Shown piece after piece: positions 8,442 to 22,179 of a stretch of 40,504 bases of DNA; position 1 is the stretch's first letter; each line of letters opens with the position of its first letter. The DNA comes from Fulvivirga sp. (lineage in GTDB: Bacteria; Bacteroidota; Bacteroidia; Cytophagales; Cyclobacteriaceae): assembly GCA_028280565.1 (NCBI GenBank), contig JANQLQ010000093.1, positions 1 to 40,504 of the forward strand. Reading direction: 5' to 3'. A program made the position numbers and the translations under genes. The notes beneath the pieces were generated by a model, which saw only the letters and a list, made by a program, of their open reading frames with translations, made no database searches and had not been told where the DNA came from.

Positions 8442-8468
8442 TTTAAACGCAAAATATTTGCGTTTAAA
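8442..8468. promoter_or_regulatory. Perfect 12+3+12 palindrome upstream of the dead receptor gene
   Basis: Arms TTTAAACGCAAA and TTTGCGTTTAAA flank the 3-nt centre ATA. The layout (12-bp arms, 3-bp centre, AT-rich flanks around a CGCAAA core) matches the palindrome at 14283-14309, whose core is TGCAAC. Its right arm supplies a TTTG (8457-8460) that could be a -33 element. It could instead act as a terminator hairpin, but the pairing with a second palindrome 36 bp downstream favours an operator. Confidence 0.5.
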
Positions 8469-8483
8469 ACCTTAATGTTAACT

Positions 8484-8498
8484 TGCAACATTGTTGCG
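8484..8498. promoter_or_regulatory. Zur-like operator core (TGCAAC-ATT-GTTGCG)
   Basis: The inverted repeat TGCAAC-N3-GTTGCG differs at one base from the cores near 14290 and 14327 and is read in the same orientation relative to a downstream gene. It lies 11 bp before the ATG of a TonB-dependent receptor remnant (8510). I infer that it was a site for the Fur-family repressor encoded at 13303-13743. Confidence 0.55.
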
Positions 8499-8509
8499 TT
8501 TACTATATC

Positions 8510-8823
8510 ATGAATGGTAGATATGCATTTCCCACCTCCTTAGTGTTATACAGCAGCTTGAGCAACGGGCAGCAAGCCTCTTTAGGGGGCAGTGTATATA
8601 CAGAAAATGGTGAGGAAGTGCCAGGAACTTTCATCCAGTTTAGTAGTGGTGAAGCCAAAGTGACAGACCCGTCCGGTGGCTTTGTTTTCAAAGCCCTAAA
8701 ACGCGGTAATTATTCGATAATCGCCTCTTTTATGGACCTCCGGTTAGACACTGCGCAATCAACGTCACACTTAAAGAGTACGTAACGCAGTTGAACAAAG
8801 GAACGGTCACCGGACAGTCATAA
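8510..8823 (+). pseudogene. TonB-dependent receptor remnant (N-terminal domain only)
   Basis: The ATG at 8510 opens a frame with a signal-peptide-like start and then a carboxypeptidase-regulatory-like fold typical of SusC/TonB-receptor N-termini (GGSVYTENGEEVPGTFIQF... then DPSGGFVFKALKRGNYSI). The frame ends early at 8784, but another frame continues the expected pattern (INVTLKEYVTQLNKGTVTG, about 8758-8817), the sequence that normally leads to the plug domain. It then stops at 8823. A single frameshift near 8740-8758 explains this. The plug and the whole beta-barrel are missing. The gene must have encoded an outer-membrane importer, and the operator-like palindromes upstream suggest it was metal-regulated. 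Confidence 0.7.
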
Positions 8824-12990: not shown

Positions 12991-13146
12991 ATGATGGTAC
13001 TCTCCATCAGCTCCATGGTGGATGCCGTGTACCTGCGCAACCTTGTAATTACCTGGGCCTTTGCAGGGATTTTCCTCCTTTTCGCAATAACGCTGTTCGT
13101 GAGCGGCATAACAGGCTTATTGCCACCGGCTCTTCTTCTGTACTAA
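12991..13146 (+). pseudogene. Short membrane-protein fragment
   Basis: A 51-residue frame with an amphipathic start (SISSMVDAVYLRNLVITWAF) and a hydrophobic core ending in LLPPALLLY. It looks like one or two helices of an integral membrane protein, perhaps an ABC-type permease, and may be debris of the same decayed locus that left the DUF3526 fragment. No clear ribosome binding site is visible and I cannot name the family. The rest of 12914-13302 holds nothing I can support. Confidence 0.3.
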
Positions 13147-13302
13147 GCCGGGCACTTTTTTACAAGGCAAGCGGTGTTATCACCAGGATCGGAGTGTGCG
13201 GTATTACACGCCTTGTTGACTATTTAGAAATATATGCCTTTGTAGCAGTTTGGGGCGTGTTTTTGTTTTTGAAATAGCGGTAATGATTTCCCCATGACTC
13301 GT

Positions 13303-13743
13303 TCATGCCACAGGGTCGAGACTCTTGCAGTCTTTACAAATTCCGCTGAGCGTGTAATTCACCCTGTTCACCAAAAACTCATCCGACAGTTTTACCTCTG
13401 GTATCTTCACATCATCCAGGCAATACGTCTGGTTGCATTCCTCGCAAATGAAATGAGCATGCTGGTGTGTATGCGCCTCACCGGGGCAATTCTTTCCACA
13501 AAGGGCATACTTGACGCCTTGGCCATCCTCGGAAGCACGATGTAATATCCCACTTTCTTCAAAAGAACTTAACGCCCGGTATACCGTTACGCGGTCTCGC
13601 TTAGACGTCATCTTAGCTACAATATCACTGGCGGAAAGCGCAAAATCATGGTCCATAAAAAGCCCTAGCATTTCCATACGTATAGGAGTTTTCTTTAAAC
13701 CATGGGCACTCAAAAGATCACCGATCAGTCTTTTGTCTTCCAT
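13303..13743 (-). CDS. Fur-family transcriptional repressor, probably Zur
   Basis: A 146-residue metalloregulator with the Fur fold. The N-terminal winged helix has the recognition-helix motif RVTVYRALSSFEESGILH (about 51-68). The dimerisation domain carries two CxxC pairs, Cys100/Cys103 and Cys136/Cys139, which form the structural zinc site of the family, and a histidine cluster HTHQHAH (91-97) for the sensing site. It is divergent from the MerC/CobW operon and shares with it a region containing paired palindromes. COG0523 GTPases, MerC and a Zrg-like ABC transporter in the neighbourhood argue for zinc sensing (Zur) over iron (Fur). I found no copy of the palindrome right before this gene itself; a shorter dyad, AGTGT-AATA-ACACT, lies about 30 nt upstream of its start. 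Confidence 0.85.
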   Translation of the reverse strand: MEDKRLIGDLLSAHGLKKTPIRMEMLGLFMDHDFALSASDIVAKMTSKRDRVTVYRALSSFEESGILHRASEDGQGVKYALCGKNCPGEAHTHQHAHFICEECNQTYCLDDVKIPEVKLSDEFLVNRVNYTLSGICKDCKSLDPVA

Positions 13744-13878
13744 ACTTCAGAATAATAGTTTTGCGGTGTTCTAGTGTAATAACACTGGCAAATTAGGTAA
13801 GTTTGGTCATTCAAAAGGTTTATCTGCTACGGATCTTTTTTACGTGGATCTTAGCATCCAAGCCCTTTATAGCTAGTT

Positions 13879-14018
13879 CGCGTTTGCAACGCAGACCGAT
13901 TGAGTAATACAGGGCACTTACGCAAGCATTTGTAATACGGGTATCAAACGTACACCGTGATCAAGACAGTAAACTCTCCTTTAAAAAACCTGCGCGAAAA
14001 TGTTACTTATCAAACTGG
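13879..14018. repeat. Dispersed repeat family 1, copy A
   Basis: About 140 bp that align along their whole length with 38569-38707. Shared segments include CGCGTTTGCAACG, ATTGAG, AGCATTTGTAAT-CGGGTATC and CACACCGTGATCAAG-like runs, ending in CTTATCAAA. Two short hairpin modules, GTTTGCAAC-type and CATTTGTAAT-type, resemble REP-like units. It lies in the repressor/MerC intergenic region but upstream of the operators. Confidence 0.75.
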
Positions 14019-14282
14019 TGGTATCAAGCATACCCCGCTGGGGAATGGCTGCGTAACCCTTGTATTGACCTAGCCGACCTACATGCAACACAAATTTTCA
14101 ACACTTTGAAAATCCGTACTTTATAAAGTATCGATCTTCGTTCCCCATACCTCCATTATTGGAGAAATAAGTAAAAAAATGACTGATGTCATTCCTACTC
14201 GAAGCATTTTCGAAAATGTTACCATTCGTAAAGATGTATTATATTATTTTTCTACTAAATGAAGTGCTTATAAAACGCATTC

Positions 14283-14309
14283 ATTAAATGCAACTATGTT
14301 GCATTTAAT
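14283..14309. promoter_or_regulatory. Zur-like operator 1: perfect 12+3+12 palindrome
   Basis: Arms ATTAAATGCAAC and GTTGCATTTAAT are exact complements around TAT. The right half contains the TTG at 14299-14301 that serves as the -33 promoter element, so a bound dimer would block polymerase. The core TGCAAC-N3-GTTGCA recurs three more times in the window, each time before a transport or metal-homeostasis gene. Confidence 0.75.
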
Positions 14310-14328
14310 ATTTATAGTCCTATATTTG
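14299..14328 (+). promoter_or_regulatory. Promoter of the MerC/COG0523 operon
   Basis: TTG (14299-14301), a 19-nt gap and TATATTTG (14321-14328) fit the Bacteroidetes -33/-7 consensus. The -7 element ends inside the second palindrome and the -33 element lies inside the first. The predicted transcript begins close to 14335, about 20 nt before the ATG at 14358. Confidence 0.7.
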
Positions 14329-14341
14329 CAACCCTGTTGCA
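14327..14341. promoter_or_regulatory. Zur-like operator 2 (TGCAAC-CCT-GTTGCA)
   Basis: A perfect 6+3+6 palindrome whose left end overlaps the last two bases of the -7 element. Its centre is 38 bp from that of operator 1, close to the 36 bp between the two palindromes at 8442-8498. It also rules out the TTG at 14337 as the start codon of the MerC gene, since that triplet is part of the operator. Confidence 0.7.
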
Positions 14342-14357
14342 TCTAAACTACCAGCAC

Positions 14358-14771
14358 ATGAAAAATCAAACTCTAGGGTTGCCGCTAGACTTTATTGGTT
14401 TTAGCGCCTCTTTATTATGCGCCTTGCATTGTGCGGCGCTCCCCTTTTTCCTCAGCCTTATTCCATTATCCGGGTTGAAATACTTGGATAATGTATGGAT
14501 AGAGTATATATTTATTTTAGCCAGCTTTTCTATCGCTGGCTATTCATTGATCCGGGGGTACTTCAGGCACCATCACAAGTTAGCCCTTCTCCTGGTAACG
14601 GCAGGATTTGCGCTAGTGGGTACCGGTCATTTTCTTGGGCATGGATGGAATGAGGTTGTTCTTACCTCCAGTGGCGCGGTAATCGTAGCCGTCGCCCACC
14701 TATTGAACTGGAACTATACACGGCAAATGAACCAGGAATGTCCAAGTTGTGAGCAAAACAATAAAGCATAA
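14358..14771 (+). CDS. MerC-domain membrane protein
   Basis: A 137-residue integral membrane protein with four predicted helices. A cysteine pair lies in the first helix (LLCALHCAALPF, Cys21 and Cys25), as in the MerC mercury transporters, and there is a histidine-bearing loop (RHHHK, then GHFLGHGW) and a C-terminal CPSC metal-binding motif. MerC proteins of mercury operons carry Hg(II), but in Bacteroidetes such genes commonly stand next to Fur-family and COG0523 genes without mer genes, and none is seen here. I infer a zinc or other divalent metal role. The gene is first in the operator-controlled run; the COG0523 gene follows after 6 nt. The ATG at 14358 was chosen because the longer TTG start falls inside an operator. 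Confidence 0.8.
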   Translation: MKNQTLGLPLDFIGFSASLLCALHCAALPFFLSLIPLSGLKYLDNVWIEYIFILASFSIAGYSLIRGYFRHHHKLALLLVTAGFALVGTGHFLGHGWNEVVLTSSGAVIVAVAHLLNWNYTRQMNQECPSCEQNNKA

Positions 14772-14777
14772 AGAACC

Positions 14778-15992
14778 ATGTTCAGAACAAAAAAGTTACC
14801 GGTGACTGTGCTAAGCGGCTTCTTGGGCGCTGGCAAAACCACGCTGCTCAATCATGTGCTCAATAACCGGGAAGGATTGAAAGTAGCCGTGATCGTCAAT
14901 GATATGAGCGAGGTGAACATCGATGAAAAACTCGTTGCTAACGGGACTAAGCTTTCTCGTACGGATGAAAAACTGGTGGAAATGAGTAACGGCTGCATCT
15001 GTTGTACACTTCGTGAAGACCTGATGATCGAAGTGGAAAAACTGGCCAAAATGAAAAAGTTCGATTACCTGCTGATCGAAAGCACAGGGATCTCGGAGCC
15101 TATCCCGGTGGCCCAAACTTTTTCTTTTGTCACGGGAGATGAATTGTATGACCTTACCAAAATAAGTCGGCTCGATACGATGGTCACCGTGGTAGATGCC
15201 TTCAATTTTTTTAACGACTTTGGCAGCGCTGATACGATTTTGAGTCGCGGCATGACGGATGACCAAGCGGACCAGCGCTCCATTGTTAACCTGCTGACTG
15301 ACCAAGTAGAATTTGCCAATGTGATCATCCTGAACAAATCAGACCTGGTGACGCAAGACCAATTAGGCTTACTGGAAAAAACACTGTACAAATTAAACCC
15401 GACGGCCAAGATCATTCGCACCACGCACAGTAAGGTTGATCCAAGAGAAATTTTAAACACAGGCTTGTTTGACTATGAAATTGCCGAGCAATCAGCAGGA
15501 TGGCAGAAAGAGTTGGAACTGGCACAAAAAGGCATCGGGCATAACCCGGAGACAGAAGAGTATGGGATCAGCTCATTTGTTTACCGCCAAGCAAAGCCCT
15601 TCCACCCGCAGCGTTTCCTGCAATACGTTAGCCGTCATTTCCCTCCTGCGGTCGTGCGCAGCAAAGGGATCTTTTGGCTGGCTTCCCGGCCGGACCATGC
15701 CATATTGTGGAGCCAGGCCGGGGGATCGATGAAAGCGGAGATCTACGGCCGGTGGTGGGCCAGTGTATCCATGAAAAAACGTGCCCTAAGCCCTGACTAC
15801 CTGGAAAACCAAGAACAGATCCAGGCAAAATGGCATAATCAATGGGGCGACCGTATGAACGAACTCGTATTCATAGGAATGGACATGGAAAAGGAGAAGA
15901 TCACCGCAGAACTGGATAAGTGTCTCGTCAATGACCTTGACGTCATCGGCATGCAATCAGGCAACCGGTTTATCGACGAATGGCCGATATGA
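14778..15992 (+). CDS. COG0523 GTP-dependent metallochaperone (ZigA/CobW type)
   Basis: A 404-residue G3E-family GTPase. The P-loop is GFLGAGKT (14-21), the metal-binding CxCC is CICC (73-76) in the switch region, ESTGISEP marks the G3-like loop, and NKSD gives guanine recognition (about 190). The C-terminal CobW_C domain is of the longer ZigA/YeiR form with a tryptophan-rich end. COG0523 proteins in Zur regulons are thought to hand zinc to essential enzymes during starvation. It is the second gene of the operator-controlled run, 6 nt after MerC, and its stop overlaps the next start as ATGA. Which client enzyme it serves cannot be told from sequence. Confidence 0.9.
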
Positions 15993-16657
15993 ACATACAC
16001 AGTTATTTGCCACAATGGGTGGGGCGTAAGATCCGGCCGCGGCAAGTGATCAGCCACAATTGGGAAGATCGCCCCAAGATCTTACAACACGATGTGAACC
16101 TTTTCTGCTGGACGAGGTCATTGGCAGCGCCTGTTACACGCTACTTAGAGGAACAGGTGCAAGCATCTCTCCAACCAATCAGCTGCCCGGTAGAAAAGAA
16201 TAACTCTTCTCAACAGCTGTCAGCGGCACGGGCCGTGTGGGAGGATACCCGGTCACCGGAAGGCGATCTTTTCTGGAAGGATGTGCATAACGTTACCCGT
16301 GACTTCCTGCAATTTTCAAAGGATGGTACTGGCACATTACATCTAAAAGTGGTGACCGACGACGCCTGCTCCAAGTTCCATGTAGACGGTTACCGGCTAC
16401 GGTTGTTCACTTCTTACCTGGGGCCTGGTACAGAATGGCTGCCTGAAGATGCCGTCAACCGGCATGCTTTGGGTACTACTAATGAGCAAATTGTAAAAAA
16501 ACCAACCCGCTTCCAAAGCTTGTGTACCGGTCATGTAGGCATTTTGAAAGGGGAAATCCCCAATCAAAATCAAGCGGTACGGGGAATAGTTCATCGGTCG
16601 CCACCTATAAAAGATACAGGGCAAAGAAGGTTGATCCTCAGGGTGGATATTGAATAG
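15989..16657 (+). CDS. DUF1826 protein, possible 2-oxoglutarate/Fe(II) oxygenase fold
   Basis: A 222-residue protein of the DUF1826 family, a frequent neighbour of COG0523 genes in zinc-controlled loci (from memory). No function is established that I know of. I notice an arrangement like the jelly-roll oxygenases: HxD in [12 protein letters not shown] (His131, Asp133), then [10 protein letters not shown], then a distal histidine in GIVHRSPP (His202), then Arg213 exactly 11 residues on. That spacing, H-x10-R, is typical of Fe(II)/2-oxoglutarate enzymes. It is an inference without structure comparison. The start at 15989 overlaps the upstream stop by 4 nt; an ATG at 15980 in frame is possible. 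The protein has no signal peptide and is probably cytoplasmic. Confidence 0.8.
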
Positions 16658-16824: not shown

Positions 16825-17805
16825 ATGAACTCTCTTGACCGCACACCTGTCCATATTATCACTGGCTTCCTAGGTGCTGGTAAAACCACTTTCCTGAATC
16901 ATTTCATCAAAGAGCATTTGCCTGGGCGGATCATGGTCATTGAGAATGAATGCGGGGATACTAATATCGATGGTGGCCTGGTCATTAACGGGGTGGAAGA
17001 AGTGATCGAACTTAGCGCCGGATGTCTCTGCTGTTCGCTGGCGGATGGTTTACTGGATGTACTGGAAGAGGCTGCCAAAAGACGGGATCAATATGATCGA
17101 CTGGTCATAGAAACTACCGGTATTGCTGATCCCAGCTCCATTCTGCAGGTTTTTTTGGAAGATCCGAGAGTAGAGCAGGTTTTCGAACTGGCGCAGGTCA
17201 TTTGCCTGGCCGATGCACGCCTGCTAGAAGAGTGGCTGGAAGAAGCCGAAGAGGCCCTGCGACAGCTAGCGCTGGCGGACGTCATCCTCGTCAATAAAAC
17301 AGATACCGTATCTCCTGTCTACATCCCAAAGATCAAATCACTGGTCGAAAACATTAATCCCCATGCGTCAGTCTTTACCGGGGCACAAGGGATTTTCCCG
17401 GTGGCAGAGATCATGAAGACAAGTACGACCAGGCCTCGCTCGATTGAAAATGCCTATAGCCATGATCATCACGATCATGAGCATGGAACCAACAGCCATA
17501 GGATCACCACGTTTACCCTCACTTTTCAGCACCCGCTGGACCTGGATCACCTCTCACTGGACCTTAACAGGATCGTCAAACTCTATCGACACCAGGTATA
17601 TCGTGTCAAAGGCATAATTGAGATACCTCGTTATCCTAACCGGGTAGTGCTTCAGTCTGCTCGAAGTGCATTCATCGCCACAGACGGTGCACCATGGCAA
17701 GAAGGAGAGATAAGGGAAGGAAAGTTGGTTTTCATTGGCAGGGAACTCAAACGCAAGGTGTTTGAAAAGATGTTTAACCGGCATATCGTAGAAATGAATG
17801 AATAG
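16825..17805 (+). CDS. Second COG0523 GTPase with a His-rich loop
   Basis: A 326-residue G3E-family GTPase, a different subgroup from the one at 14778. P-loop GFLGAGKT is at 14-21, the metal-binding CLCC at 67-70, and NKTD at about 157-160. A histidine-rich loop (HDHHDHEHG plus a further His, 213-225) separates the GTPase from the C-terminal CobW_C domain; such loops bind zinc or nickel in YjiA and HypB relatives. The 167-bp gap after DUF1826 contains no operator-like palindrome and no clear promoter, so the gene is probably read from the MerC promoter. Having two COG0523 types in one run suggests separate clients or a storage role for the His loop. Confidence 0.9.
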   Translation: MNSLDRTPVHIITGFLGAGKTTFLNHFIKEHLPGRIMVIENECGDTNIDGGLVINGVEEVIELSAGCLCCSLADGLLDVLEEAAKRRDQYDRLVIETTGIADPSSILQVFLEDPRVEQVFELAQVICLADARLLEEWLEEAEEALRQLALADVILVNKTDTVSPVYIPKIKSLVENINPHASVFTGAQGIFPVAEIMKTSTTRPRSIENAYSHDHHDHEHGTNSHRITTFTLTFQHPLDLDHLSLDLNRIVKLYRHQVYRVKGIIEIPRYPNRVVLQSARSAFIATDGAPWQEGEIREGKLVFIGRELKRKVFEKMFNRHIVEMNE

Positions 17806-19813: not shown

Positions 19814-20245
19814 TCATCGGTATACCCGTGCATCCTTCAGTATATAGTTGCACTGGTAAATGTCGTCGTAATTAAGCTCCAAGGTTCCCAGTATGGTGAT
19901 CCGCTGATCCATTTTGAAATTGAGGTTGCCAGGAAGAAGCTCTAATTCAACGACGGATTCCGGGCCTCCACTACCGCAAAAAAAGCATGATGCATAAGGA
20001 TAGCGAGAAAGAACATAAATACCATCAATAGGATCGATTACGAGCATATAACCTTCTAAGTACACCTGCTTACCTTCCAGGGCCTTTACCGCGCTGCCAA
20101 AATTCGGATAATAAAAATTGGCCTGGGCCTCCTCGTTGTATTGCCCCGAAAACTGAACATCATCCAGTGTATTCCATGTGATCTCGACCTGGGACATTAC
20201 CGGCGTAGCAGTAACAAGTAAGAATAGGATCGCTAATCTAATCAT
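19814..20245 (-). CDS. Exported DUF3299-like protein
   Basis: A 143-residue protein with a signal peptide (MIRLAILFLLVTA... to about residue 19) and a single OB-like domain. Family landmarks: ITWNTLDD at the start of the mature part, GKQVYLEGYM in the middle, and SCFFCGSGGPE with a Cys pair (CxxC) that may bind metal. DUF3299 proteins accompany the ATPase and permease of Zrg-type zinc transporters, as in the Vibrio cholerae zrg locus that I recall as Zur-controlled. The ATG at 20245 was chosen over upstream starts because it begins the signal peptide. It overlaps the permease stop by 8 nt, so translation is coupled. It is the last gene in the operon. Confidence 0.75.
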   Translation of the reverse strand: MIRLAILFLLVTATPVMSQVEITWNTLDDVQFSGQYNEEAQANFYYPNFGSAVKALEGKQVYLEGYMLVIDPIDGIYVLSRYPYASCFFCGSGGPESVVELELLPGNLNFKMDQRITILGTLELNYDDIYQCNYILKDARVYR

Positions 20246-21503
20246 AGGCCAATGTTTTGGAAATGTTGATCTTAAATGCACGTACTGCCGGGAGTAGTGA
20301 GGCCAGCAACCCGATGACTAGGGAGGCAACCAGCAGTTGCCATTCTTCCCTAATGATCTCCCCACCCGAAAACGAATAGTGATATCGGGCTTCCATTAGG
20401 CCGGATATCAGCAAAAGGCCTACCCGGCTAAAGAGTATGCCTAACAGGAAACCCAGCCCTGCAAGCAGTAACCCCTCCTGCAGCACCAGCCAGACCAACT
20501 GCCAGCGGGTAGCCCCATAGGTACGCATTAGGGCCATTTCGTACTGCTGGTCTTTTAAGGCGTTGTAAAGGCTGATAAATACACTCAACCCCGATACCGC
20601 CATGATGACAAGGGCAATGGTGCTGAGGGTATCCACCCCTACCCCCAACAGGTTGAACAAACGATTGATTTCGTATGCGGGCACGGCGGCCTGCATGTTG
20701 GTGTTCTCGTTGACCATTCTGGGAAGCTGTATCATGGCCATAGGGCTCCTGAACCGGATCAACATGGCAGTGATCTCGCGTTCTTCCCCGGGGGTACCAT
20801 CATGTGCCGTAGTCTCGGAATGCTTTTCATCAGCTTCTTCATGCGCATGGTTTTCTTCCCCCGGGTGGTTTTCCGATTTTTCTTCTTCATGATGATGGAC
20901 CTCCCACACGCTTTCGGTGGCAGTAAGAATAAGCTGATCAATTACAGCATTCGCGTAACCTAATATCCCCACGACCTGGTAAGGATGTTCGTCATGGATT
21001 TCACTCCCTTCCCCCATTCCGTGAGTCCCCATAAAGGTATCACCTATCTGCAAGCCCAGGTTTTGGGCTATTGTGGCCCCGATAGTCACCTCGAAGGGCT
21101 CCTGCCAAAGCCGCCCGTTGGACACAGGGGCCTTATACAGTTCAGGGTATTGATGATCGGTGCCAACGATGCGGTAACCCTTGTAACTGTCGCCATAGGA
21201 AAGCGGGATACCAGCAGCCACCAGGCGGTTTTTCCTGAGTTGTTCCGCCTCGTGCAAAGAAATATTACCTGTAGGTGCATCAATATGGTAAACGGCTGAA
21301 AGGATGAGCTGTAGCGGGCTACCTTTTGCGCCTACCACCATATCAACACCACGAATATTGTTCTCCATCTGCTGCTGGATGTGGCGGTTGACCTGCAAAA
21401 GCAAAGCGATCATGCCTACCCCCAGCGTCAGCAATAGCAGGCTTAACAGCGTACTTAACGGACGGTCTGCTATATTCTTGTAGCCTAACTTAACAATGTT
21501 CAT
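20238..21503 (-). CDS. FtsX/MacB-type ABC permease with a His-rich loop
   Basis: A 421-residue permease of the LolC/MacB fold: one N-terminal membrane helix (about 18-38), a large periplasmic domain, and three C-terminal helices (about 290-315, 335-365, 388-410). The periplasmic domain carries an insert extremely rich in His and Glu/Asp (about 203-234, with HHHEEEK and HAHEEADEKH), fitting a zinc-binding arm. Together with an adjacent LolD-like ATPase and a DUF3299-like partner it matches the Zrg-type transporters. Whether these import zinc or do work on periplasmic zinc proteins is not settled to my knowledge. The start overlaps the ATPase stop as ATGA (21500-21503). Confidence 0.85.
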   Translation of the reverse strand: MNIVKLGYKNIADRPLSTLLSLLLLTLGVGMIALLLQVNRHIQQQMENNIRGVDMVVGAKGSPLQLILSAVYHIDAPTGNISLHEAEQLRKNRLVAAGIPLSYGDSYKGYRIVGTDHQYPELYKAPVSNGRLWQEPFEVTIGATIAQNLGLQIGDTFMGTHGMGEGSEIHDEHPYQVVGILGYANAVIDQLILTATESVWEVHHHEEEKSENHPGEENHAHEEADEKHSETTAHDGTPGEEREITAMLIRFRSPMAMIQLPRMVNENTNMQAAVPAYEINRLFNLLGVGVDTLSTIALVIMAVSGLSVFISLYNALKDQQYEMALMRTYGATRWQLVWLVLQEGLLLAGLGFLLGILFSRVGLLLISGLMEARYHYSFSGGEIIREEWQLLVASLVIGLLASLLPAVRAFKINISKTLAYD

Positions 21504-22126
21504 AGGAGAATTGAGTTTTGAAAATGTGCTTTCAACCTGTGATCATGGGTGATGACCACTAATTGTGCTCCTGTGGTAGCAGCTTGCTGCTTAAGCAGTG
21601 AGGCTACGTTCAGGCAGTTGGTATCATCCAGGCTTGAAGTGGGTTCATCCGCGAGGATAAGCTGAGGGTTGTTAAGTACAGCCATGGCAATAGTGGCACG
21701 CTGTTGTTCCCCCTGGCTGAGTAAGTGAGGCCTATCATATCGTTTATGGGTGATGTCAAGACTTTCAAGTACTTGCTGCGACCGCGCTTTATCCTGTCTT
21801 TTCCCGGCCAGGTATTGCACCAGTGCTAGGTTTTCCTGTAAGGACAAGGAGCGGATAAAATGCGGGCGTTGAAATACAAGGCCAATGTGTCTGCCCCGGA
21901 ATCGGTCCAGTTTGGCAGGAGATAACGTTTGAAGCTCGGTGCCCATTAATTCTACATGGCCAGTACCCGGTGATAACAGCCCAGCCATTAAATGAAGCAA
22001 AGTGGTTTTACCGATGCCCGATTTTCCTAAGATCAATAAGTCCGTACCGGCTTCCAGGGAAATGTCCGGAAACTGGAACGTGGCACGGTGATCATACGAG
22101 AAGGTTAATGAGCGAGTGATCAACAT
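21500..22126 (-). CDS. ABC transporter ATP-binding protein (LolD-like, Zrg-type locus)
   Basis: A 208-residue ATPase with all family motifs: Walker A GKSGIGKT (34-41), a Q-loop (VFQRPHF, about 84-90), signature LSQGEQQR (136-143, Gln replacing the second residue Gly of LSGGQ) and Walker B LILADEP (156-162), then a switch His (VITHDH). It is the energising subunit for the permease that follows. The ATG at 22126 was chosen over a TTG at 22141, which would add residues outside the conserved core. Upstream is the TGCAAC-N3-GTTGCG palindrome, so transcription of this three-gene operon is probably repressed by the Zur-like regulator. Confidence 0.9.
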   Translation of the reverse strand: MLITRSLTFSYDHRATFQFPDISLEAGTDLLILGKSGIGKTTLLHLMAGLLSPGTGHVELMGTELQTLSPAKLDRFRGRHIGLVFQRPHFIRSLSLQENLALVQYLAGKRQDKARSQQVLESLDITHKRYDRPHLLSQGEQQRATIAMAVLNNPQLILADEPTSSLDDTNCLNVASLLKQQAATTGAQLVVITHDHRLKAHFQNSILL

Positions 22127-22164
22127 GATGTACGAGGGCAAATCTATTAATGCAACGATACAAA

Positions 22165-22179
22165 TGCAACAATGTTGCG
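22165..22179. promoter_or_regulatory. Zur-like operator of the ABC operon
   Basis: TGCAAC-AAT-GTTGCG is the same inverted repeat as near 8484 and 14327, flanked by AAA and ATTT. It lies 38 bp upstream of the ATPase start. A single TGCAAC half-site occurs at 22151-22156. On the minus strand TGCATTTG could be a poor -7 element, partly overlapping the palindrome; no good -33 is obvious. Confidence 0.65.

Follow-up and report, generated by a model that had tools for sequence, protein, structure and literature searches.

The operon headed by a MerC-family gene in Fulvivirga sp. (a stretch of 40,504 nucleotides was analysed, hereafter the window) is preceded by two palindromes lying between positions 14283 and 14341, which raise the question of what binds them and in response to which signal. 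The reading that we prefer, with a probability of about 0.86, is that they form a predicted tandem Zur operator repressing a zinc-starvation operon.

The first palindrome, operator 1 (14283-14309), is a perfect 12+3+12 inverted repeat, ATTAAATGCAAC-TAT-GTTGCATTTAAT, built around TGCAAC-TAT-GTTGCA. It covers the -33 region and holds the -33 TTG of the plus strand (14299-14301), which lies 19 bp upstream of the -7 box. The second, operator 2 (TGCAAC-CCT-GTTGCA, 14327-14341), is fused to the end of that box (TATATTTG(C), plus strand, 14321-14328) and lies over the probable start site. Both the TTG inside the perfect palindrome and the overlap with the end of the -7 box had been described in the initial annotation, and both were confirmed. 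The box corresponds to the Bacteroidota consensus in the accessible text of PMC9723704 and PMC12632263. The core starts are 38 bp apart (14289 and 14327). Taking the -7 box TAnnTTTG at -12 to -5, as placed in the available part of PMC9723704, transcription would start at about 14333, operator 1 would occupy about -50 to -24 with the TTG at -34 to -32, and operator 2 would occupy -6 to +9. The suggestion that occupancy of both sites would shut the MerC promoter is supported by these promoter positions, for a putative Fur/Zur-type operator. In 40 dinucleotide shuffles of the window, perfect arms of at least 12 bp (loop of up to 8) arose on average 0.05 times per shuffle and at most once, and the window holds two perfect 12-arm palindromes, operator 1 and another at 8442-8468. 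When compared with the Zur box ATGCAACNNNGTTGCAT, operator 1 matched all 14 fixed bases and operator 2 matched 13, the first A being replaced by T.

The genes behind the promoter, all on the plus strand, encode the MerC-family membrane protein (14358-14771, PF03203), a ZigA-like COG0523 GTPase (14778-15992, 548 bits, below the curated cut-off of 600), a DUF1826 protein (15980-16657) and, according to the family search, a second COG0523 GTPase (16825-17805). We infer binding, its zinc dependence and a repressive direction of regulation, which would work as follows. When zinc is sufficient, a zinc-loaded Fur dimer of the Zur clade would sit on each palindrome, one over the -33 element and the other over the -7 element and the start site, and RNA polymerase would be kept from starting the MerC-COG0523-DUF1826-COG0523 operon. 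When zinc runs out, the dimers would be released and the zinc-salvage operon would be made.

Similar sites lie elsewhere in the window. The operator at 22165-22179 (TGCAACAATGTTGCG, 1 mismatch) is upstream of a minus-strand ABC operon, whose LolD-like ATPase (21500-22141, from the family search) and MacB/FtsX-type permease with a His-rich stretch (20238-21503) are predicted regulon members. The permease gene is followed, likewise in relatives, by a minus-strand gene for a small protein that gave no family hit (19814-20281) and which we take to be DUF3299-like. The other perfect 12+3+12 palindrome, TTTAAACGCAAA-ATA-TTTGCGTTTAAA (8442-8468), is a divergent operator-like site with 4 mismatches to the core, and its core begins 36 bp ahead of the next one, TGCAACATTGTTGCG (8484-8498, 1 mismatch), which is placed before a short receptor-like ORF (8483-8785). 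By eye, this ORF resembles a truncated TonB receptor start.

The content of the core across genomes was determined by comparison with a reversed control. The exact core TGCAACNNNGTTGCA was found at 5 sites in the 9.05-Mb genome (control, 0), and with up to 1 mismatch at 19 sites (control, 4). In 58 genomes, comprising this one and its relatives, 138 exact sites were found as compared to 6 control sites; 42 of the 58 genomes contained at least one, as did all 15 genus members searched, own genome included. In the phylum set the core matched in 106 of 392 genomes and the control in 29. In the search of the genome and its relatives that the initial annotation had proposed, the motif was not spread at random, and the sites often lie before zinc genes. 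Of the 138 sites, 77 were examined; they come from this genome and 15 of its relatives (relative G008 was left out). A predicted gene start lies -30 to +250 bp from 64 of these 77 sites, with respect to 3073 of 12400 random positions (25%), and TANNTT stands immediately 5' of TGCAAC at 15 of them, against 1.4 expected.

Among the neighbouring genes, 86 of 89 were kept for Pfam analysis (three short ORFs in L231 and L233 were dropped), and the families comprised TonB plug (17), MerC (10), ABC (9), pyridine-nucleotide oxidoreductase (6) and cobW (2). One HisI-type PRA-CH gene was also present; hisI2 is a listed Zur target in Pseudomonas protegens in the accessible part of a review (PMC6103462). 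In the own genome, MerC genes stand behind sites in the window and on contig C53, TonB receptors with adjoining lipoproteins on C168, C263 and C57, and ABC transporters on C302 and behind the window site at 22165. Other neighbours have no clear zinc link (three subtilases, a transposase, an alanine racemase, a squalene synthase and others), and four one-mismatch sites (C290, C206, C188 and C219), three of them within long ORFs, look like chance. Sites before zinc-homeostasis genes are hence an enrichment over the genome and not a property of each site. Relative G016 (loci L230-L247) has 20 exact sites, several of them before genes without a zinc link, including proteases, and its regulon is perhaps enlarged. 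The oxidoreductase recurs beside operators, at times adjoining MerC and a Zur-like gene; Pyr_redox_2 was listed in L205, L251 and L116, and look-alikes by sequence were seen in L228, L234, L124 and L272-L274. On contig C270, operator-like sites with 1-2 mismatches (L022:4891, 6574 and 6611) flank a Fur-like gene, and the ORFs behind them gave no Pfam hit.

A preferred distance between paired sites was observed. Within 15-80 bp of the 77 sites, second sites (up to 3 mismatches) gave 29 offsets, of which 20 were at 36-40 bp (any pair of two exact sites contributes twice); shuffled flanks gave 2.5 over the whole range. When a named collection was scanned for pairs of cores whose starts lie 20-50 bp from each other, at least 119 stretches were found; the matches listed correspond to 80 loci, of which 51 are Bacteroidota by record titles (L163, Kapaibacterium, was placed outside). 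Among the matches listed, 36 of 54 Bacteroidota pairs are spaced 37-39 bp, or 28 of 46 once eight loci that precede exporters (see below) are removed; TAnnTT is fused to the inner face in 26 of these 46, and outside Bacteroidota 17 of 32 pairs have a spacing of 44-50 bp. In three Desulfovibrio-type ZnuA loci the cores are 22-23 bp apart, and in another Desulfovibrionaceae locus 31 and 33 bp. In several aligned promoters the site over -33 is the weaker one (e.g., GCAA-N5-TTGCGTTTG) and the site fused to TATATTTGCAAC is strong, a pattern that the window pair 8442-8468/8484-8498 resembles. If both sites have to sit on the -33 and the -7 elements, a distance of about 38 bp would result without any protein-protein contact, so that promoter geometry is a confounder of the spacing peak.

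The register in which the core is fused to the -7 box matched in 47 of 296 class genomes (control in 2). By the rule used, 2 of 30 such loci had no ORF, and the remaining 28 downstream genes included TonB plug (4), cobW (3), MerC (3) and ABC (3) families, together with methyltransferases, an amino-acid permease and a ferredoxin-like protein that have no clear zinc link; no P-type ATPase, CDF or HlyD gene was among these 28. In 9 of the 30 loci there was another site (up to 3 mismatches) 36-40 bp away, and single-site promoters are common.

The candidate repressor is encoded next to the operon, on the minus strand (13303-13743, PF01475, 56 bits). In the alignment with E. coli Zur (EcZur), this Fur-family protein keeps most Zur zinc ligands, namely H77, C88, H96, C103, C106, C143 and C146, the last four being the two CxxC pairs of the structural zinc site. 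EcZur E111, which together with H77, C88 and H96 we take to form the regulatory site (E. coli numbering), has no aligned residue. Zur was the top NCBIfam model, at 40.2 bits as compared to a cut-off of 167, and we take this shortfall to bar the formal Zur label, not the function. The predicted model (pLDDT 87.9) has a Fur fold and matches Fur, PerR and Zur structures including 4mtd, among which a fold search cannot separate. The family tree leaves Zur membership unsettled, because EcZur sits on a long branch. The motif is commoner where a Zur-clade protein is present: in the phylum set, 58 of the 134 genomes that have a Zur-clade hit contain it, as do 48 of the 258 that have none (p 3.5e-7), the reversed control giving 3 of 134 and 26 of 258; among the 58 relatives the motif occurs in 41 of 49 with and 1 of 9 without, relatedness and genome size being ignored in both comparisons. 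About 540 bp separate the start of the window regulator gene from the nearest palindrome, which makes it doubtful that the palindromes control this gene as well. Of the 51 Bacteroidota tandem loci among the matches listed, 11 have the pair immediately ahead of a Fur-like gene. The window-type gene of relative G002 is the last of an ABC operon, whose ATPase appears as two ORFs, and such a site separates this operon from a divergent MerC-COG0523.

The genome contains three further Fur-family paralogs, of which C225 is Zur-like, C53 is Fur-like and lacks H77 and C88, and C270 groups with E. coli Fur. Because the window, C225 and C53 proteins all carry a DRVT[VI]YR recognition helix, sequence alone cannot name the binder, and the second Zur-like paralog is as plausible a candidate as the neighbouring Fur protein. 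That the widely conserved C225 paralog is the main binder, with the neighbouring protein accessory and in a partly different role, seems to us only slightly short of an even chance. The C225 and window proteins are 44% identical and have the DRVTVYR stretch and H77, C88 and H96 in common; moreover, relatives that have the less similar kind of hit alone still have the motif (e.g., G004 and G012), and the window type is a separate clade of 9 rows. However, the window-type gene travels with the regulon, being found with MerC here, with the ABC operon in G002 and with ABC/MacB genes in G016. As a separate observation, Fur-like paralogs without H77 and C88 occur near MerC and motif sites at L020:433-855 (C53) and L215:3349-3765.

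A predicted response to zinc, whichever paralog acts, has to be set against a site that answers to some other metal or regulator, be it iron, mercury or peroxide, which we regard as unlikely. The name MerC comes from mercury resistance, and about 2.6 kb separate the C53 paralog, which lacks H77 and C88, from another tandem site; yet the neighbours include ZigA-like COG0523, HisI-type, TonB and ABC genes, no mercury reductase was among the Pfam families shown for the neighbouring genes, and ZnuA genes follow the motif in three loci of Desulfovibrio type and in one from Epsilonproteobacteria. It is highly improbable that the palindromes are transcriptional hairpins (a terminator or attenuator) or chance repeats. 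A terminator scan does list 14283-14309 on both strands, but the copies share a core that is enriched over the control by the counts given above for the 58 genomes, the spacing recurs in other species, and the sites lie on the promoter rather than in a leader. A terminator or attenuator and known RNA families were rejected on account of the promoter position, the shared core and the lack of any Rfam match in 13000-16000.

The same core is also found at a second position with respect to the -7 box. Eight tandem loci, with Prevotella, Prevotellaceae, Porphyromonadaceae or Bacteroidetes in their record titles, precede a P-type ATPase or CDF exporter, and in 8 of 8 the -7 box starts 27 bp past the start of the nearer core. 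No exporter was found in the Prevotella-titled loci L096, L134 and L147, of which L147 alone was searched with Pfam. The core followed by 12-14 bp and TANNTTTGC gave three sites in 392 genomes, all with a gap of 13 bp, and none in the own genome. Two of the three precede P-type ATPases, and the third a Cys/His-rich small protein and then RND-type and CDF-like genes (named by eye). In the family of G292, with gaps of 10-16 bp allowed, 95 of 199 genomes matched (control, 0), and among the matches listed the gap was 13 bp in 112 of 114 sites and 14 bp in 2. We examined 29 of these 114 sites as new loci. The downstream genes were E1-E2 ATPases (19), CusB/HlyD (3), CDF (2) and HMA (1), giving 25 of 29 in metal-exporter families as compared to 0 of the 28 genes behind -7-fused sites (p 2.7e-12, the samples coming from different clades); a urocanase and a methyltransferase were also among the 29. 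A second site was present in 3 of the 29 loci, none at 37-38 bp, so that these are mostly single sites. The loci in this register are L085, L086, L091, L112, L127, L130, L144, L145, L266-L268 and L275-L303. A Zur-like gene lies within 3 kb of at least 37 of the 114 listed sites (about 0.2 expected). In G292 and G427 it stands directly behind the ATPase gene, with a DKSTIFR or DKSTISR helix and a C88-type cysteine (by eye), and the Zur-like protein of G186 has a DRTTLYR helix.

The fixed position at about -32, upstream of the -7 box, suits an activator. In these loci a Zur-like regulator of their own, when zinc-loaded, would switch zinc exporters on, and in several of them it would do so with a DKST/DKSN-type recognition helix, not a DRVT-type one. 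The exporter site may instead be the operator of an apo-repressor over -33. We give even odds to the idea that one core serves two opposite registers in Bacteroidota, as a repressor site (-7-fused, centres at about -37 and +2) and as an exporter activator site (centre at about -32). What may be new here is the exporter register. If it is true, zinc uptake and export would be set by the same DNA word at two positions, and the activator-versus-repressor question for Fur proteins could be tested by moving one site. The analysis also predicts a zinc regulon for a large bacterial group, down to the operator sequence, the spacing of the pairs and a list of targets, and ties the 2004 Desulfovibrio prediction to a much wider operator.

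Proteobacterial and cyanobacterial Zur boxes differ from this core. Fur boxes and Gram-positive and actinobacterial Zur boxes were rejected as matches, since the published sequences, so far as accessible, differ, and so was the proteobacterial Zur box, judged by the E. coli motif in the available part of PMC6103462. The COG0523 survey, in its accessible text, names Firmicutes, proteobacterial and cyanobacterial Zur sites (PMC2770081). No Bacteroidota Zur motif was found in the literature searched, a weak negative in that it covered few subscription papers and RegPrecise lay outside it. The initial annotation had held the core to be unlike the known Zur boxes and possibly specific to Bacteroidetes, and neither view stood: ATGCAACNNNGTTGCAT is the Zur box predicted in 2004 before znuABC-zur of Desulfovibrio vulgaris and D. 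desulfuricans (Rodionov 2004; PMC545781, accessible part), and tandem copies occur in Desulfovibrio, Betaproteobacteria and Campylobacterales/Epsilonproteobacteria records. In the literature searched, with the spellings tried, the exact consensus was printed by PMC545781 alone. In records titled Betaproteobacteria or Epsilonproteobacteria (L107, L131, L108, L126, L122, L157 and L155), tandem cores lie near MerC, COG0523, PTPS (QueD-like), ZnuA and ZIP genes.

The feature is a predicted tandem operator of the Zur type. It is of a known kind, and its motif has previously been predicted in Desulfovibrio. The consensus is identical to that of the Desulfovibrio Zur_D box, and in three Desulfovibrio-type loci tandem cores are followed by ZnuA and, in two of the three, by a Zur-like gene that comes after ZnuA inside the 8-kb stretch. 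For Zur_D, the available text of PMC545781 lists one box per operon and zinc uptake by an ABC transporter, whereas the MerC/COG0523 genes are preceded by two boxes spaced 38 bp and fused to a Bacteroidota -7 box. The arrangement with two boxes per promoter is shared, according to the parts of the sources available, with S. coelicolor znuA and B. subtilis yciC, where double Zur boxes lie over -35 and -10 (review PMC6103462), and with the C. metallidurans cobW1 operon, which is expressed in zinc starvation only (PMC10882993); those promoters are of other types, and a near-constant spacing of 36-40 bp is not described in the same text. The exporter register resembles S. coelicolor zitB (PMC5472717) and Synechococcus bmtA (PMC9337993), where, in the accessible text, Zur activates a gene for zinc export or storage from a box on the gene's promoter or upstream of it. 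In those two systems the same Zur plays both roles, whereas some exporter loci here have their own Zur-like gene, and, unlike zitB and bmtA, the exporter register has a fixed 13-bp gap to the -7 box. With respect to these known systems, the lineage is new and the promoter geometry is a recurring one.
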